A stretch of 64,000 nucleotides of DNA from Amphibalanus amphitrite (Eukaryota > Arthropoda > Thecostraca > Balanomorpha > Balanidae): NCBI RefSeq assembly GCF_019059575.1, contig NW_024881963.1:310001-374000 (forward strand), given 5' to 3'. A program made the translations under genes and the position numbers. Below, one piece after another: positions 10,554 through 40,094 of the stretch (position 1 is the stretch's first letter; each line of letters begins with the position of its first letter). The notes below the pieces were generated by a model. The model had not been told where the DNA came from. It saw nothing but the letters and a program-made list of their open reading frames with translations, and searched no databases.

Positions 10554-10559
10554 TTTATT
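10554..10559 (-). other. Polyadenylation signal AATAAA for HAUS1
   Basis: TTTATT on the plus strand reads AATAAA on the minus strand, about 130 nt past the HAUS1 stop codon, a normal distance for a short 3' UTR. Confidence 0.6.
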
Positions 10560-10686: not shown

Positions 10687-11526
10687 TTATCCGCTCGATC
10701 CGGCTGTATGTATACCGTGAATCTTGTCATTGAACTGGGCCTCCAGCTTCTCCAGCTCTGCTTCCATTTCGGCGATTTTCACCCGCGCCAGGTCGGCATC
10801 GGGTGGCAGTTCTCCGAACTGCTTCAGTTTCAGCTGCAGCTGCTCCAGGGAGCCGCGCCTCTGCGTCAGAAACTCGAAACGCCGCAAAATCATGTCGTGC
10901 GTGAGCTCCTCAGAGAATCCTCGCTGGGCGAGAATGCCCTCTTGTTTTCTCACGAGACTCTTGTACTCCTGCATCTTTCCGGAAAGGAAGCGCGATTTGG
11001 CCAGTTTCTGTTGAATGACAGCCTCGTCGGCGCCCTGCTGCGCGGCCGCCTCGGTGAGCTGCCGCTCCAGCGCCGCCTCCTGCACCAGCAGCTGCTTCAC
11101 GTCGGCCTGCTGCCCGCGCAGCCCGGCCTGTTCGCGCTCCAGTCGCGCGGCCAGCGCCTGCTGCTCCCGTTCGAGGCGGGCGTGCTCCAGCAGCAAACCG
11201 GCCGGACTCGGTCGGTCCAGGCCGAGCAGCTGCGCCGAGTGCGCCAGCGCCGAGAGCACACGCTGGGAGTCGGACGCCAGGTGGACACGCTCCACGCCCA
11301 GACGGCGCTGCGCCGCCTCCAGTCGGCGCTGCTCAGCGGCGTACGCGGCGCGCGTGACGCGCAGGTGCTCCGTTAGCCGGCGTGCGTGCTCGTCATTGGC
11401 GTCGACAGTAGCTTGCAACTGCTGCAGCAGCGACAGCGTGCGCCGGTCCACTTCGTAGGCAGGCACGTCCGCTGTGCCAAGCGTGTCCACCAGCCACTGG
11501 TTTATCTTGACGATCTCCTTGTTCAT
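10687..11526 (-). CDS. HAUS1: HAUS augmin-like complex subunit 1
   Basis: Single-exon frame of 279 residues, the same length as vertebrate HAUS1 (278). Augmin binds spindle microtubules and recruits gamma-tubulin for branching nucleation; HAUS1 is one of its coiled-coil subunits. The N-terminus (INQWLVDTLG, then VPAYEVDRRTLSLLQQL) aligns by eye with human AAWLKKIFG and IPQYEVNPRTTEILHHL. The C-terminus (SRFLSGKMQEY, LAQRGFSEELTH, PPDADLARVKIAEMEAELEK) follows human FLKAKSEEF, SARGMDASLSH and NPSLAQVKIEEAKRELDSIE. Residues about 30-270 are heptad-rich coiled coil with many Arg, Gln and Glu. The ATG overlaps the TGA of the upstream ASDURF-like frame (ATGA), so this start seems fixed by the arrangement. 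No intron is needed. The antisense frames over this GC-rich stretch are shadows. Confidence 0.9.
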   Translation of the reverse strand: MNKEIVKINQWLVDTLGTADVPAYEVDRRTLSLLQQLQATVDANDEHARRLTEHLRVTRAAYAAEQRRLEAAQRRLGVERVHLASDSQRVLSALAHSAQLLGLDRPSPAGLLLEHARLEREQQALAARLEREQAGLRGQQADVKQLLVQEAALERQLTEAAAQQGADEAVIQQKLAKSRFLSGKMQEYKSLVRKQEGILAQRGFSEELTHDMILRRFEFLTQRRGSLEQLQLKLKQFGELPPDADLARVKIAEMEAELEKLEAQFNDKIHGIHTAGSSG

Positions 11527-12055
11527 TGCGTCAGCGTCACGTTACCATGCGACTTGAGCTCCTGTTTCACTGAAGAACGCACCTCTGGCAGCTTTCCCAA
11601 GAAGAACACCTGGCTGTTGGGCTGCTGAATGTATACCCGCTGGCCAACACACAAAACAAGTATCAGCAGGCTGACGTTACACACATACAACTTACAAGTA
11701 TAGGCGGCGGAACAGGGAGGGCACCGGGGCACCGTGCCCCCCTTTAATTTTGGCAGTTTAACATTAGCCCTATGGGCGTTGCATGGAAAGAATGGGACTA
11801 AAAGTCGGCAGTGCCCCCCCCCCCTTGATTGAAGGTGTTCTGCCACTACTGCTTACAAGCTTTTATTACAAGCTGTTTTTAGGTATTTGTACAGGCAAAA
11901 TAAGTTCATTAAATATCAATCATAGACCTCTGTATCGGTATAAAGACGTCTATCTATCAAATGTATTCATGTAAATATAACAAATACTCAAAAATACTTA
12001 CAGATCCCCTCTTTAAGCTTCCTAGTTCAGCATCCAGTATCTGCAGCTCCCTTAG
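11523..12055 (-). CDS. ASDURF: ASDURF-like prefoldin-type subunit, last two coding exons
   Basis: Two exons are clear. Exon at 12055-12002 (18 codons, acceptor tttccag, donor gtaagt) encodes LRELQILDAELGSLKRGS. Exon at 11639-11523 (acceptor ggccag) encodes 38 residues beginning RVYIQQPNSQVFFLG and ends in TGA. Human ASDURF, the protein from the ASNSD1 upstream frame and a prefoldin-like PAQosome subunit, reads IKEQKIVVDELSNLK, then [20 protein letters not shown], in the same order, with a matching splice-compatible gap. The joined phase is 0. The first exon with the start codon was not located; the intron upstream is occupied by a transposon (12344-13492). The stop TGA overlaps the HAUS1 start, suggesting one bicistronic mRNA. 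Identification rests on about 35 aligned residues, so it is likely but not certain. Confidence 0.7.
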
Positions 12056-12343
12056 CTGGAAAGCAAAAAATTGCAGTACTTTATTATTCACCATTAGAGC
12101 AGCAAAAATGTTGGGGGTAATTGCTTTATATGACATCTAAGGTGAAGGGGCATTCAAGTAACATAAAATACGTGCCTTATTGGTATCCTTGCCGTCTGCA
12201 ATGTTACTGCTATCAGCCTGTCCTGAGGCAAGAGAAACTGCCTTCTTCATGGGTCAATACTATTTTTACCCAGCCTGTGAACAAAGTAGCATCATTTACA
12301 TGTTAAGAAACATTAGCTGCCTTGAAATGTGACAAGGAGTTAT

Positions 12344-21765: not shown

Positions 21766-22110
21766 GTCAACAGCAAACAGGGAGCAGCAGATTTTAAACA
21801 ACATACACAACTATGATGTGCATATATTTACTTTCATTTTGTTAACACATAAACATGAAAGGCAAAATGTATTTTTGCACCAGTGTGGTGTGTCAGGCAT
21901 GTGTATGTGTATAACATCACTCATACATATAAATAAATGTGTGTTTCTTTACAGAGAGACGACTAACACAGAAACAGCCAATTCCTTCATTTTACTCAAA
22001 GCTAGCGCCGGCCTGTCCATCTAATCCGAAGCTGCGTAAAACCAGAGTTCTTCTCCAAATTGTACTGTCTTCTTCTCGGCCAAGTGTAAGGGCCTCTTTC
22101 GCCGCTGACA

Positions 22111-25100
22111 ATGGCAGCCGAGATTAAGCCAGCCGTGGGCGGGCAGCGCACCACCGGTGATCGCAAGCTGACGCTGCTGGCTAAGGTCGAGGGCTTCGGC
22201 GACGACGTCCACGACGCCGTCTTCATTGACGGCGAGGACGGCATCATCACAGCGTCAGACGACAAGTAGGTCACCCGGCGGATGCTGGGGAAGTGGGGAA
22301 GTGTTGGGGGCTGTGCTGGGCAGTGTATATGTTAAGGGTATGTGATATTGTTTGATATGGTTCTGGGTGTGGATGCTATCTCATTTGTTCAATTCGGACT
22401 AAATGTCCGTTGTTGATTTTGCATGATGCATAGTCGGAACTCTCAGTAATAGTCATCTAGCATTTATCATGCATGCAAGCATAAAAACAAACCACTGTAC
22501 AGCTTCATATCTAACCTGCAAATGCAGATATCAGAATGGATGCTGACAACTTCAGCCATGTGGTTGCCCTTAAGCCCAAATATGTACAAGTACATATGCC
22601 AGGTGTGCTTGCAGTTCATTTCTTTTCGCGTCTTGTTCTCACCATATTGTGGTTCTAAGTTTGATCTGTCACGTATCCAGTGTTCTCACATTTCTGGTGT
22701 TTCCAATGTTTCGTTTTCCATTTTCGACGAGTGACATGCCGCGGCCTGTCCTGTCCTGCTGCTGTTCCCACAGGTCTGTACGGGTGTGGCTGCGTCGCGA
22801 CACGGGACAGTTCTGGCCGAGCGTGTGCCACTATATGCCGTCACCGACCACGTGCCTTTTCTACCACGCCTCCTCCCACCGGCTGTTCGTCGGCCTGGAC
22901 AATGGCACCGTTTGTGTGAGTGGGTCGGCTGTCGGACGACTCGTGTGCTGTAGGGTGAAGGCAGGCTCAGAGCGGTGGATTTCTTTGGTGGCTGCAACCA
23001 TTTGGAGGGGAACGTGTGGTCGTTTTCACGATGGTGGAAACTTGCATTGTTTGGTTTAGACCTGCTGTGCTGTCATTATCGTTACCGTGTCTGCCAAATG
23101 TGTTTAGTAAGGAACAGCTTGTGGTATGATACGTTTTGCCAATTTTTCATAGCTCTACACTGTCCCAGCTTTAACTTCCATGTCGTTTGCCGCCTGTCAA
23201 CGTAGTTGAATGGATGTAAGCCTCACTGTACCTACCGGCTATTTCTACATCTCGCATGCATTTCACACGTCCCCATGAAAACCATTCAGAGCTCCCCACT
23301 GACCTACTCTGACCCTCTGCACCCGGTGCGCCCGTAGGAGTTTCACCTGGCCACCGACTACAACCGTCTGTCCCCGGTGCGGGACTACCTGGCGCACCAG
23401 GCGCGTGTCACCGCCTGTCTGCTCTGCCCGACCAGCGAGTGGACGCTGAGCGTCAGCCGAGACAAGACGTTCCAGTACCACTGCACCGAGACGGGCCGCC
23501 GGCTGGGGGGACACCAGACAGACGCCTGGTGCACGGCCATGCAGTACGACATGACGTCCAAGCACGTGTTTGTCGGCGACTACTCGGGCCTCATCACTAT
23601 GCTGAAGCTGGACGAGTCGGGCCCGACGCTGATCACCAAGCTGAACGGACACACGGGCAGTATCGGGTTAGTGACCAGCGGATGGGTACGGTGGTAGAGG
23701 AAGGAAGGCAGGGAGGCTAAGGTGTCGGGAATGGGGGGGGGGGAGGGATGAGAGTGTTCATACATGCCACAAGCCATATTTGCCACCGTACATGCCACAA
23801 CAGATTTTGTAGGTTGTGGGTTTAAGGTTGTAGGTTGGTAGGTGGTTTTATATTTACTGTGAAAAGACAGCTGTGACGCTCTTGGGACGTGGTACTGCGT
23901 GACATATTTGATATACACCCTCGGAAATGGGACTCTTTTATGATGTCATGCTGTTAAAACGCGTGACCAATTACTATCAACCACGGTGTTGGAAGGGGTA
24001 AGGGGGGGGGGAAGACTAGTGACACACTTGAAAATTATCAAAGGTTTGTCGCGCCCCTAATTTTCTTGTCCCCTTGTCCTCTCTCCCTTGTCACCTCCCT
24101 CCCTGTCTGTCATCTCCCGCCGTCTCGCTGACTCTCTCTCCCTTCCTGCAGCGCTCTCTCTTGGGACGCAGTCCGCCAGTGGCTCTTCTCGGGCAGCTAC
24201 GACCAGAACATCATCGTCTGGGACATTGGCGGTCGCCAGGGCACCGCCTACGAGCTGCAGGGCCACACGGCCAAGATTCTGTCTCTGTGCTACCACGCCG
24301 GCTCCCGACAGCTGCTCTCGGCTTCAGAGGACGGCTCGGTGGTGGTGTGGAATATGGCAGCCAGCCGGCGAGAGGTAGGTAGCTGCGGAGAGGAGGAGAA
24401 CGGATGTGAGCTACAGAGAGAAGAGGGGAGAGGTGGGGTTCAAAGGAGAGGGCAGGGCGGGGCTCCAGAGGAGAGGAAGGTAGGTGCCAGAGGATATGGG
24501 AGAGCTGGGTGTCGGTTTGAAAGGAGAGGCAGTGGCGGGTTTTAGAGGAGAAGGGCTGACAGTGCCACAGGACTGGTGTGGGATATTACCTTCAGGAAGC
24601 TGGCGGCACACAATGTGGGTCGTCTTATGTGGTGCCAGCGGATTGTGTGGCTAGTCTGGGGCGACATGTGTATGTGCTAAATACGGTCTCTGTTTGCCAG
24701 ACCCCGAGCTGGAACGAGTCGGACGTCTGCCAGCTGTGCAGTAAGCCGTTTTTCTGGAACCTGCGGGCCATGTACGACAACAAGCAGCTGGGCCTCAATA
24801 GGCAGCACCACTGCAGGTCAGTAAGGTGGCAGTAGGTACTACAGACCAGCAGCCTGCTGGGCCTCAGCAAATATTACAGGTTTGCTGGACCTCAACTGGC
24901 TCACGCTCATTGGTATTATTCTCCTATTGCTGCACGTCTTGTAAAAGCCTCTGCATTATGATTGTTAGAACGGTCATATCTCTTGTTATTTATAGAACCT
25001 CTCGCCCCCCCCCCCCCCCCCGGCACCACCACACACACTAATTGGTATTAGTTGCTGCCTCTACAGTTTCTCTTCTCCTGCTTACCTTCCATATACCCAT

Positions 25101-36906: not shown

Positions 36907-37139
36907 GGGCCTGGGGTTAAATCCCCTTACTTTGGGGCGGCTCGGCAATCCGTTTTGTAGCGTCGTTGTGGGCTGCAGCAGAAGTGTTCTTTCCAAGCGT
37001 CATCAGCTTCCGCAGCGTTTCTGTTTGCGCAACGGTCACGCTCCGCAGCAGCCTTTCGCTTTCGTATACCGGCACGACCTCTTTCGCGACGGCACCGCGA
37101 CGGTTCCTTTCGCGACGGCACCGCGACGGTCCCTCTCAC

Positions 37140-38800
37140 CGCGGCATCAGCTTCCGCAGCTTCACGACCTCTTCTTTCGCGACGGCACCGCGACGGATTC
37201 TTTCTGCAGCATCAGCATCCGCAGCTTCGTTGTACCTCAACCTCTTCGGCACGACTTCCTCTTCCGCGACGGTCTCTTTCTCTCTCGGCGACATCAGATC
37301 GACGGCACCGCGACGGATTTTTTCTACATCATCCGCTGCTTCGTCGTACCTCAACCTCTTCGGCACGACTTCCTCTTCCGCGACGGTCTCTTTCTCTCTC
37401 GGCGACATCAGATCGACGGCACCGCGACGGATTCTTTCTACAGCATCAGCATCCGCAGCTTCGTCGTACCTCAACCTCTTCGGCATGTCTTCCTCTTTCG
37501 CGACGGTCTCTCTCTCTCTCGGTGACATCAGATCGACGGCACCGCAACGGATTCTTTGTACAGCATCAGCATCCGCAGCTTCGTCGTACCTCAACCTCTT
37601 CGGCACGACTTCCTCTTCCGCGACGGTCTCTTTCTCTCTCGGCGACATCAGATCGACGGCACCGCGACGGATTCTTTCTACAGCATCAGCATCCGCAGCT
37701 TCGTCGTACCTCAACCTCTTCGGCACAACTTCCTCTTCCGCGACGGTCTCTCTCTCTCTCGGCGACATCAGATCGACGGCACCGCGACGGATTCTTTCTA
37801 CAGCATCAGCATCCGCAGCTTCGTCGTACCTCAACCTCTTCGGCACGACTTCCTCTTCCGCGACGGTCTCTTTCTCTCTCGGCGACATCAGATCGACGGC
37901 ACCGCGACGGATTCTTTCTACAGCATCAGCATCCGCAGCTTCGTCGTACCTCAACCTCTTCGGCACGACTTCCTCTTCCGCGACGGTCTCTCTCTCTCTC
38001 TCTCGGCGACATCAGATCGACGGCACCGCGACGGATTCTTTCTACAGCATCAGCATCCGTAGCTTCGTCGTACCTCAGCCACATCTGCACGACTTTCTCT
38101 TCCGCGACGGCACCGCGACGGTATCTCTCTGTGACATCAGCTTCCGCAGCTTCATCGCGCCTTATTCACCTCGGCACGACCTCTTGTTCCGTGACGGCAC
38201 CGCGACGGTTTCTCTCTGCGTCTCCCTCTGCGGCGTCAGCTCCCGCAGCTTCATCGTACCTCAACCTTCTTGGCACGACTTCCTCTTCCGCGACGGCACC
38301 GCGACGGTTTCTCTCTGCGGCATTAGCTTCCGCAGCTTTATCGTACCTCATCCTCCTCGGCACGACTTCCTCTTCCGCGACGGCACCGCGACGGTATCTC
38401 TCTGCGGCATCAGCTCCAACAGCTTCATCGTACCGCAACCTCCTCGGCACGACTTCCTCTTCCGCGACGGCACCGCGACGGTTTCATCTGCGGCATCAGC
38501 TTCCGCAGCTTCATCGTTCCTCAGCCACATCTGCACGACTTTCTCTTCCGTGACGGCACCGCGACGGTATCTCTCTGTGACATCAGCTTCCGCAGCTTCA
38601 TCGCGCCTTATTCACCTCGGCACGACCTCTTGTTCCGTGACGGCACCGCGACGGTTTCTCTCTGCGTCTCCCTCTGCGGCGTCAGCTCCCGCAGCTTCAT
38701 CGTACCTCAGCCACCTCTGCACGACTTCCTCTTCCGCGACGGCACCGCGGCGGTTTCATTCTGCAGCATCAGCCCCCGCAGCCTCTCCTTCGTCCACATG
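37140..38800. repeat. 120-bp tandem repeats inside the LTR element
   Basis: A 120-bp unit containing ATCGACGGCACCGCGACGG and CTCAACCTCTTCGGCACGAC is repeated about seven times at 37230-38050, then continues as shorter variants to about 38800. The unit is a multiple of three, so long frames are open on both strands. The minus-strand frame (37136-37966, element sense) encodes a charged 40-residue repeat with PKRLRYDEAADADAVERIRR. The plus-strand frame of 706 codons is antisense to the element. Coding status is unknown. Confidence 0.8.
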
Positions 38801-40094
38801 TCCCTCAACATCGTGCTGCGGCGTCCACTACTGCAGCATCATGGCGTTTCCGCAGCATCGGCATCCCCGCGCGGCATCTCGCTTTTGCAGCGTCATCATG
38901 TCCTGCAACACTGGCTTTCATTCCGCACATCACTTGCTTCTACCAGGCATCTATCGGTCCTGCAGCCTCGGCAATCATTCCATGCATCACTCGTTTACGC
39001 AACGTCTTCGTGTCCTGCAGCATTGGCAGCAGTTTCCGCAGCGGCATTTCTTTCATCGTTTGTATTCGGTGCGACAGCTTGGCTAGCGGCACAGCAGCTT
39101 AGGATTCGATGCGACGTTGAGCTTTAGCTCGGTTGCGTTGGGGCTTCACCCGGTCCTCGTTCTTGTTGACTGCCGCCAGATGGATGTATGCGATACCGGT
39201 GGCGTTCCCGAACGTCACATGGGCGCACCAGGGATCAGATAGCAGTGTAGCTCGGCGCTTCGTCCTCCAGGATGGTGCTGCCGTCGATTGATTGGGTGGC
39301 TTCCTTACTTGCACGTTTCCGCAACATCTTGTCCTGCAGCGGCGTTCGCCTTCGCAGCCGCCTCGGCCGTTTTGCGTAGCATCCGTTCCTGCAGCGTCAT
39401 CGTGTCCTGCAGCATGAGCTCTCTTTCCGCGCGGCATCAGCCTCCGCAGCGTCACCATTTGCGGTTCGCCGCGGCAGTTCGGCTTGCGGTGCAGCTCAGG
39501 ATTCGACGCGACTTGAGCTTTGGCTCGGACGCTTTGGGACTTCACCTGGTGGTACTCGTTGCTGTTGTCGGTTGCCAAGTGGACGCATGCGATACAGGTG
39601 GTGGTCCTGACCGTCACCCGGGCTCACCAGATGGCAGTGTAGCTCGGCGTGTTGTTTCCAGGATGGTGCTGCCGTAGTTGCTTAGGTGGACACACGGCAG
39701 CGTCCGCGGTGTCCTCGTTGCCGCCACAGCAGCAGCAGCGTTCGCAGCGTCATCACGTTCTGCAGCTTTGCCATGTCTTTCCGCACGGCATCCGCTTGTG
39801 CATTCGGGTGCAGCAGCTGGGGCCTGCGGCGCTGCAGCTCAGGCCTGTTGCGATTTCGGAGCCCCTGGGGCGGGCGTGGTGCCGTCGGCTTGGTTGCTTG
39901 GGCTCGGGGCGTTATCTGGTGCCCGTCGCTCGGTGATTGCCGTCAGTCGGATGGGTACCATCCAGGTGGCGCTCTGGTCGGCCCACGGGCTGACCAGTTG
40001 GCAATGTAGCCTTGTGGGTTGCGCCTCGGGATGTCTCAGCCGTCGGTGACCGGTTGAGCGGCCGGTGCTGCGGGGTCGGTCCGCCGTGGTTGTT

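Follow-up and report, generated by a model that had tools for sequence, protein, structure and literature searches.

A small reading frame supported by a profile search as a homologue of ASDURF ends in a stop codon that overlaps the start codon of HAUS1 in a barnacle genome. The positions of the two frames and the contexts of their start codons lead us to propose, with fair confidence, that they form a bicistronic gene in which HAUS1 would be reached mostly by leaky scanning. In the proposed spliced mRNA, ASDURF (about 81 residues) would be the first frame and an intronless HAUS1 (279 residues) would be the second, and the mRNA would end at a poly(A) signal behind HAUS1. The window, meaning the whole stretch of 64,000 nucleotides that was analyzed, is G000:C466:310001-374000; the genome searched comprised 807.6 Mb in 2644 contigs. 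Its COX1 frame stays open when read with the invertebrate mitochondrial code and contains 8 in-frame AGA codons, which the vertebrate code reads as stops.

The HAUS1 coding sequence occupies positions 10687 to 11526 of the minus strand and encodes 279 residues in a single uninterrupted frame. This frame matched PF25762 with an E value of 1e-51 and a score of 176.5 bits, against a cut-off of 40, over profile positions 1 to 236 of 236. Among the PDB chains, those of HAUS1 were matched (8at2, 8fck, and 7sqk; for 8at2, E value of 3.1e-22), and the alignments to the two best of them (8at2 and 8fck, 286 residues) start residue 2 to residue 2. Judged by these comparisons, the long frame is certainly HAUS1, as the initial annotation had named it. 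The same exon has a TAA codon 18 nt upstream that closes the HAUS1 frame, and the next methionine is residue 185; the ATG at 11526 to 11524 is thus the only plausible HAUS1 start. This ATG shares two bases with the ASDURF TGA in an ATGA at positions 11526 to 11523 of the minus strand, which confirms the overlap that had been described. The HAUS4 domain had one match in the genome, and this is compatible with an augmin complex. Scans of IMG/VR and GTDB for relatives of HAUS1 returned 0/70 and 0/463 pattern matches.

Two exons of the small frame were defined on the minus strand. Coding exon 2 (12002 to 12055; LRELQILDAELGSLKRGS) follows the acceptor tttttgctttccag/CTA and ends at the donor TCT/gtaagt. 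The last coding exon (11523 to 11639; RVYIQQPNSQVFFLGKLPEVRSSVKQELKSHGNVTLTQ) follows the acceptor gttggccag/CGG and ends in the stop codon TGA at 11525 to 11523. Canonical GT-AG sites join 12055-12002 and 11639-11523 in phase 0 to give 56 residues ending in TGA. When these 56 residues were compared with 24,736 Pfam families, the top match was PF21975 (ASNSD1-SEP, that is, ASDURF) with an E value of 1.9e-5, and the runner-up family reached only 0.082, below its own cut-off. The match to PF21975 is ungapped over 45 positions and scores 25.1 bits, slightly below the curated cut-off of 27. The last exon by itself matched PF21975 with an E value of 0.042, and exon 2 extended into intron 2 matched no family in the Pfam search, which indicates that the splice join carries the signal. 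The resemblance of the last exon to ASDURF, claimed at the outset from the letters of the sequence, was therefore upheld by the profile search of the joined residues. In an ungapped comparison with what we take to be the human ASDURF sequence, 19 of 46 residues are identical to the barnacle small frame.

When the whole genome was searched with the 56 residues, four exon matches were obtained from four candidates, two in the window and two on a second contig, C183; a diverged second copy of ASDURF could escape this search. The genome-wide search with the PF21975 profile returned no matches and missed the known exons too, so it was uninformative and was replaced by the protein query. Against PDB, the 56 residues had no match at an E value below 1 (best, 1.2). 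The RPAP3_C domain had five matches in the genome, compatible with a PAQosome. A scan of IMG/VR and GTDB for ASDURF relatives gave one match among eight (L027), which was rejected as a chance match because it crosses a stop codon on a phage-like contig.

The reading of C183 suggested a first coding exon of 25 codons, running from ATGAAGAAG... to AAG/GTACGT. Its counterpart in the window lies at 12176 to 12250 of the minus strand (25 codons; MKKAVSLASGQADSSNIADGKDTNK), and on sequence grounds it is the probable first coding exon, completing ASDURF to 81 residues. The model rests on the start codon, the open frame, the donor, and the presence of the exon in both copies. It was chosen after looking, by its start codon, the preceding stop (an in-frame TGA two codons ahead of the ASDURF ATG), and its donor in C183. 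In a donor scan of C183, the proposed exon was ninth of the best 14 of 68 candidates, and by donor score it was second of the 59 candidates with at least 15 open residues. No exon 1 candidate was convincing when the window by itself was scanned for GT donors, the window donor being GC. Another candidate, MVYEK (12429 to 12415), was dropped since it falls outside the blocks common to the window and C183. Ahead of the ASDURF ATG lies a probable 5' untranslated stretch (12251 to 12274, minus strand), preceded by an acceptor-like site, ctttgttcacag/GCTGGG, that is also found in C183; this site at 12274 implies that a leader exon is located further upstream. Intron 1 (12056 to 12175, minus strand) is 120 nt long in the window and 997 nt long in C183, where it carries an insertion of about 880 nt. 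Intron 2 (11640 to 12001, minus strand) is 362 nt long and holds a dispersed repeat at about 11700 to 11851, of which the genome has at least 39 further copies with 90 to 95% identity.

With the proposed exon 1, the 81-residue models scored 28.4 and 28.5 bits against PF21975 (E value of 1.7e-6), and the exactly reversed 81-residue sequence had no Pfam match. As a control, exon 1 was replaced by 10 other upstream peptides of C183, which were 10 of the 13 other listed exon 1 candidates. PF21975 was the best family in all 10 cases (24.5 to 28.6 bits), and two of the 10 peptides scored as high as the proposed exon (28.5 to 28.6 bits). It is therefore exons 2 and 3 that carry the family match, and passing the cut-off of 27 is not independent evidence. 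Since unrelated upstream peptides raise the score equally, the Pfam score is likewise no proof of exon 1. These results also bear on whether the small frame could be an unrelated coiled coil or a chance frame. The frame is short, it falls short of the curated cut-off when exon 1 is left out, and its separate pieces give the marginal and empty results described above. However, no other family comes close to its E value, PF21975 remains best with each substitute peptide, the reversed sequence is empty, and exons 2 and 3 are identical in both copies. We consider a false assignment very improbable, and the data support the small frame as an ASDURF homologue.

The contig C183 aligns collinearly with the window from window position 24164 to 121, in 17 chained blocks broken by insertions, and it keeps the ASDURF-HAUS1 arrangement. 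We read C183 as the other allele (haplotig) of the window; alternatively, it may come from a recent duplication. The divergence of the coding sequences between the two copies was compared with that of intron 2 (17/362 bases), which is only a rough neutral yardstick because it contains the dispersed repeat. ASDURF exons 2 and 3 differ at 0/171 bases (Fisher P = 0.0023), the 81-codon ASDURF model differs at 1/246 (P = 0.0012), and HAUS1 differs at 8/840, with one replacement (P = 9e-5). Exon 1 alone differs at 1/75, which is not significant (P = 0.33). The sole difference in ASDURF falls in exon 1 and exchanges Leu and Pro at residue 7.

The two copies also differ at the exon 1 donor (12178 to 12170, minus strand), which reads AAG/GCACGT in the window and AAG/GTACGT in C183 (L009 near 2480). 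This is an apparent splice-donor polymorphism or assembly error. If the GC donor abolished splicing of intron 1, the ASDURF frame would stop after 37 residues, the window would represent a damaged allele, and only C183 would make ASDURF. We regard this as quite unlikely, as most of the flanking donor bases fit the consensus and exons 2 and 3 are the same as those in C183. GC-AG introns, moreover, are a known functional minority.

The geometry of the locus suggests that ASDURF and HAUS1 are probably carried on one mRNA. Neither AATAAA nor ATTAAA is present in the 246 nt of the ASDURF coding sequence or in the 840 nt of the HAUS1 coding sequence, and one such hexamer occurs in the 147-nt 3' flank. 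AATAAA is located behind HAUS1 at 10554 to 10559 of the minus strand and is also present in C183. Because neither coding sequence holds AATAAA or ATTAAA, an mRNA containing the ASDURF stop most likely continues through HAUS1. Such hexamers do occur in the introns: both copies have AATAAA in intron 2, and the window copy also has AATAAA in intron 1 and ATTAAA in intron 2. In addition, GATAAA, a weak form of the signal, stands 20 nt into HAUS1 in both copies; shorter ASDURF mRNAs are therefore possible.

The same hexamers would suit a different arrangement, in which HAUS1 is transcribed separately from a promoter lying within ASDURF, in its second intron or final exon, and the overlap of the frames reflects crowding. 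Such a promoter could be marked by the initiator-like word TCAGT, which lies at 11573 and precedes the HAUS1 ATG by 47 nt; by our estimate, about 0.7 occurrences are expected per 725 nt. Separate transcription would also have precedent in FlyBase, where only 45 of 159 dicistronic loci appear to be exclusively dicistronic for both genes (PMC4528330). However, intron 2 and the final ASDURF exon contain neither TATA[AT]A nor TCAKTY, the dispersed repeat takes up about 150 of the 362 nt of this intron, and the stretch from the ASDURF stop to the end of HAUS1 is free of AATAAA and ATTAAA. We hold a separate HAUS1 promoter to be a doubtful, though credible, explanation and prefer the shared mRNA.

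Several further features were observed in the window. A WD-repeat gene on the plus strand, at about 22090 to 24380, is divergent from ASDURF-HAUS1 and presumably resembles WDFY1/WDFY2; the ASDURF leader may begin near the start of this gene. Between 8518 and 9644, a 21-base tandem repeat (GGCCCTCTGTGTGCCTGAGAG) extends for about 1.1 kb with long open frames on both strands and is artefact-prone for gene finders. On the plus strand at 36921 to 39086, an arginine/serine-rich repeat frame of 721 codons overlies sequence whose other frames are also long and open; it is probably a minisatellite.

In the modeled mRNA from 12274 on, three AUGs precede that of HAUS1, namely, the ASDURF AUG (CCCATGA) and the AUGs of two 3-codon frames (TGGATGC and CGCATGG). 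The bases at -3 of these upstream AUGs are C, T, and C, whereas HAUS1 (GCAATGA) has a G. We propose that some scanning ribosomes would bypass the weak ASDURF AUG, with its C at -3, as well as the two out-of-frame 3-codon frames, and would then initiate at the HAUS1 AUG, which is the first to have a purine at -3. Reinitiation at the ATGA may contribute. Leaky scanning is favored over reinitiation because the three upstream AUGs are without a purine at -3 and HAUS1 has one.

The initial annotation had instead proposed stop-start coupling by reinitiation, in which the same bicistronic mRNA would yield HAUS1 through termination and reinitiation at the ATGA. The overlap of stop and start is present, as that proposal held, and it is the geometry of known reinitiation systems. 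The mechanism itself was weakened, since the contexts of the three upstream AUGs in the spliced model are weak and fit leaky scanning, and since the ASDURF frame is long: after 81 codons, ribosomes normally reinitiate poorly unless a special RNA element is present. We therefore consider reinitiation an unlikely account of HAUS1 translation. A leaky scanning pattern with a weak frame 1 start has been described for green algal bicistronic genes, which resemble the barnacle locus in the weak context of frame 1 and the small number of AUGs before frame 2 (PMC11291117). They differ in belonging to another lineage and in having been tested by mutation, whereas for the barnacle we infer the pattern from start contexts.

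That ASDURF stands ahead of a gene other than ASNSD1 was borne out by the location of ASNSD1 itself. A genome search with PF00733 gave one match from three candidates, on the contig G000:C113, and a GATase_7 domain was found in the same frame (E value of 1.7e-6). We take this gene to be ASNSD1 from its exons; its ATG (MCGIRF) lies at L017:3845. In tblastn searches of three ASNSD1 stretches (L017, L018, and L019), the best ASDURF matches scored 16.5, 18.5, and 17.7 bits, with E values of at least 0.37; as a benchmark, the true ASDURF exons in the window scored 80.5 and 61.2 bits. ASDURF was thus undetected near ASNSD1, in about 15.7 kb upstream and in 9.5 kb of the other flank. Within 260 bases before the ASNSD1 ATG, we observed the element TGACGTCA. 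A 56-codon upstream frame overlaps the ASNSD1 start and by eye is unlike ASDURF.

The further suggestion that the vertebrate location of ASDURF is derived found partial support, as it agrees with a plant orthologue reported as its own gene. Arabidopsis At1g49245 is described as the ASDURF orthologue and a UXT interactor, and it differs from the barnacle case in having its own gene identifier (PMC10893143). The same gene has been identified as encoding a prefoldin (PMC4792155) and has elsewhere been called structurally similar to UXT instead (PMC12699172). If the orthology given in PMC10893143 is right, the listing of plant ASDURF as its own gene makes the ASNSD1 partnership unlikely to be ancestral and suggests that the ASNSD1 location is not the ancestral one for ASDURF. 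The statement that partners in human bicistronic mRNAs are mostly older than their pairing (PMC13303939) is in line with a derived vertebrate location.

The barnacle locus can be set beside known bicistronic systems. In the human ASDURF-ASNSD1 mRNA, as here, ASDURF is the first frame before a longer unrelated frame (PMC13303939). In the barnacle, however, ASDURF is paired with HAUS1, a different contig carries ASNSD1, and the frames overlap in an ATGA. The STREMI-SLC35A4 pair, for which a model of "gene symbiosis" has been put forward, likewise has a small frame in first position and a downstream coding sequence that lacks introns, and in the human bicistronic set 50% of the downstream frames are intronless and a retroposition model is proposed (PMC13303939). 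STREMI-SLC35A4 differs in that it concerns other genes and human data, whereas in the barnacle we infer retroposition only from the missing introns. Dicistronic genes of Drosophila, with 159 pairs in release 6.04, provide an arthropod precedent, and the main text of that report, as distinct from its supplementary gene list, contains 0 occurrences of augmin or dgt (PMC4528330). In the main text of a survey of conserved fly uORFs, prefoldin, augmin, and asparagine likewise have 0 occurrences (PMC2276209). Among the titles and abstract openings listed by literature searches, none reported ASDURF together with HAUS1, which is a weak indication that the pairing is undescribed.

Vertebrate HAUS1 has several exons. 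The pairing in the barnacle probably arose by loss of the HAUS1 introns or by retroposition of HAUS1 into the ASDURF tail. Replacement of the tail by HAUS1 would be expected to leave an ASDURF shorter than the PF21975 model at its end. The match of the 81-residue model ends at profile position 76 of 96 and is followed by 10 more residues, so that ASDURF ends about 10 residues before the end of the model.

ASDURF takes its name from ASNSD1 and serves in the literature as an example of a functional uORF. Its occurrence with another partner shows that the protein can be separated from the partnership, and comparing animal genomes becomes a way to test how the vertebrate arrangement originated. 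Annotation could also easily overlook a PAQosome subunit that is hidden in another gene's leader. No joint function of ASDURF and HAUS1 is claimed. Tentatively, and below even chances, we suggest that ASDURF has been captured as a first frame repeatedly, with unrelated genes (ASNSD1 in vertebrates and HAUS1 here) placed behind it separately in different animal lineages. If this is true, selection may favor a first position for ASDURF that is leaky and translation-limited, and through the coupling the dosage of a PAQosome subunit may be linked to cell division.
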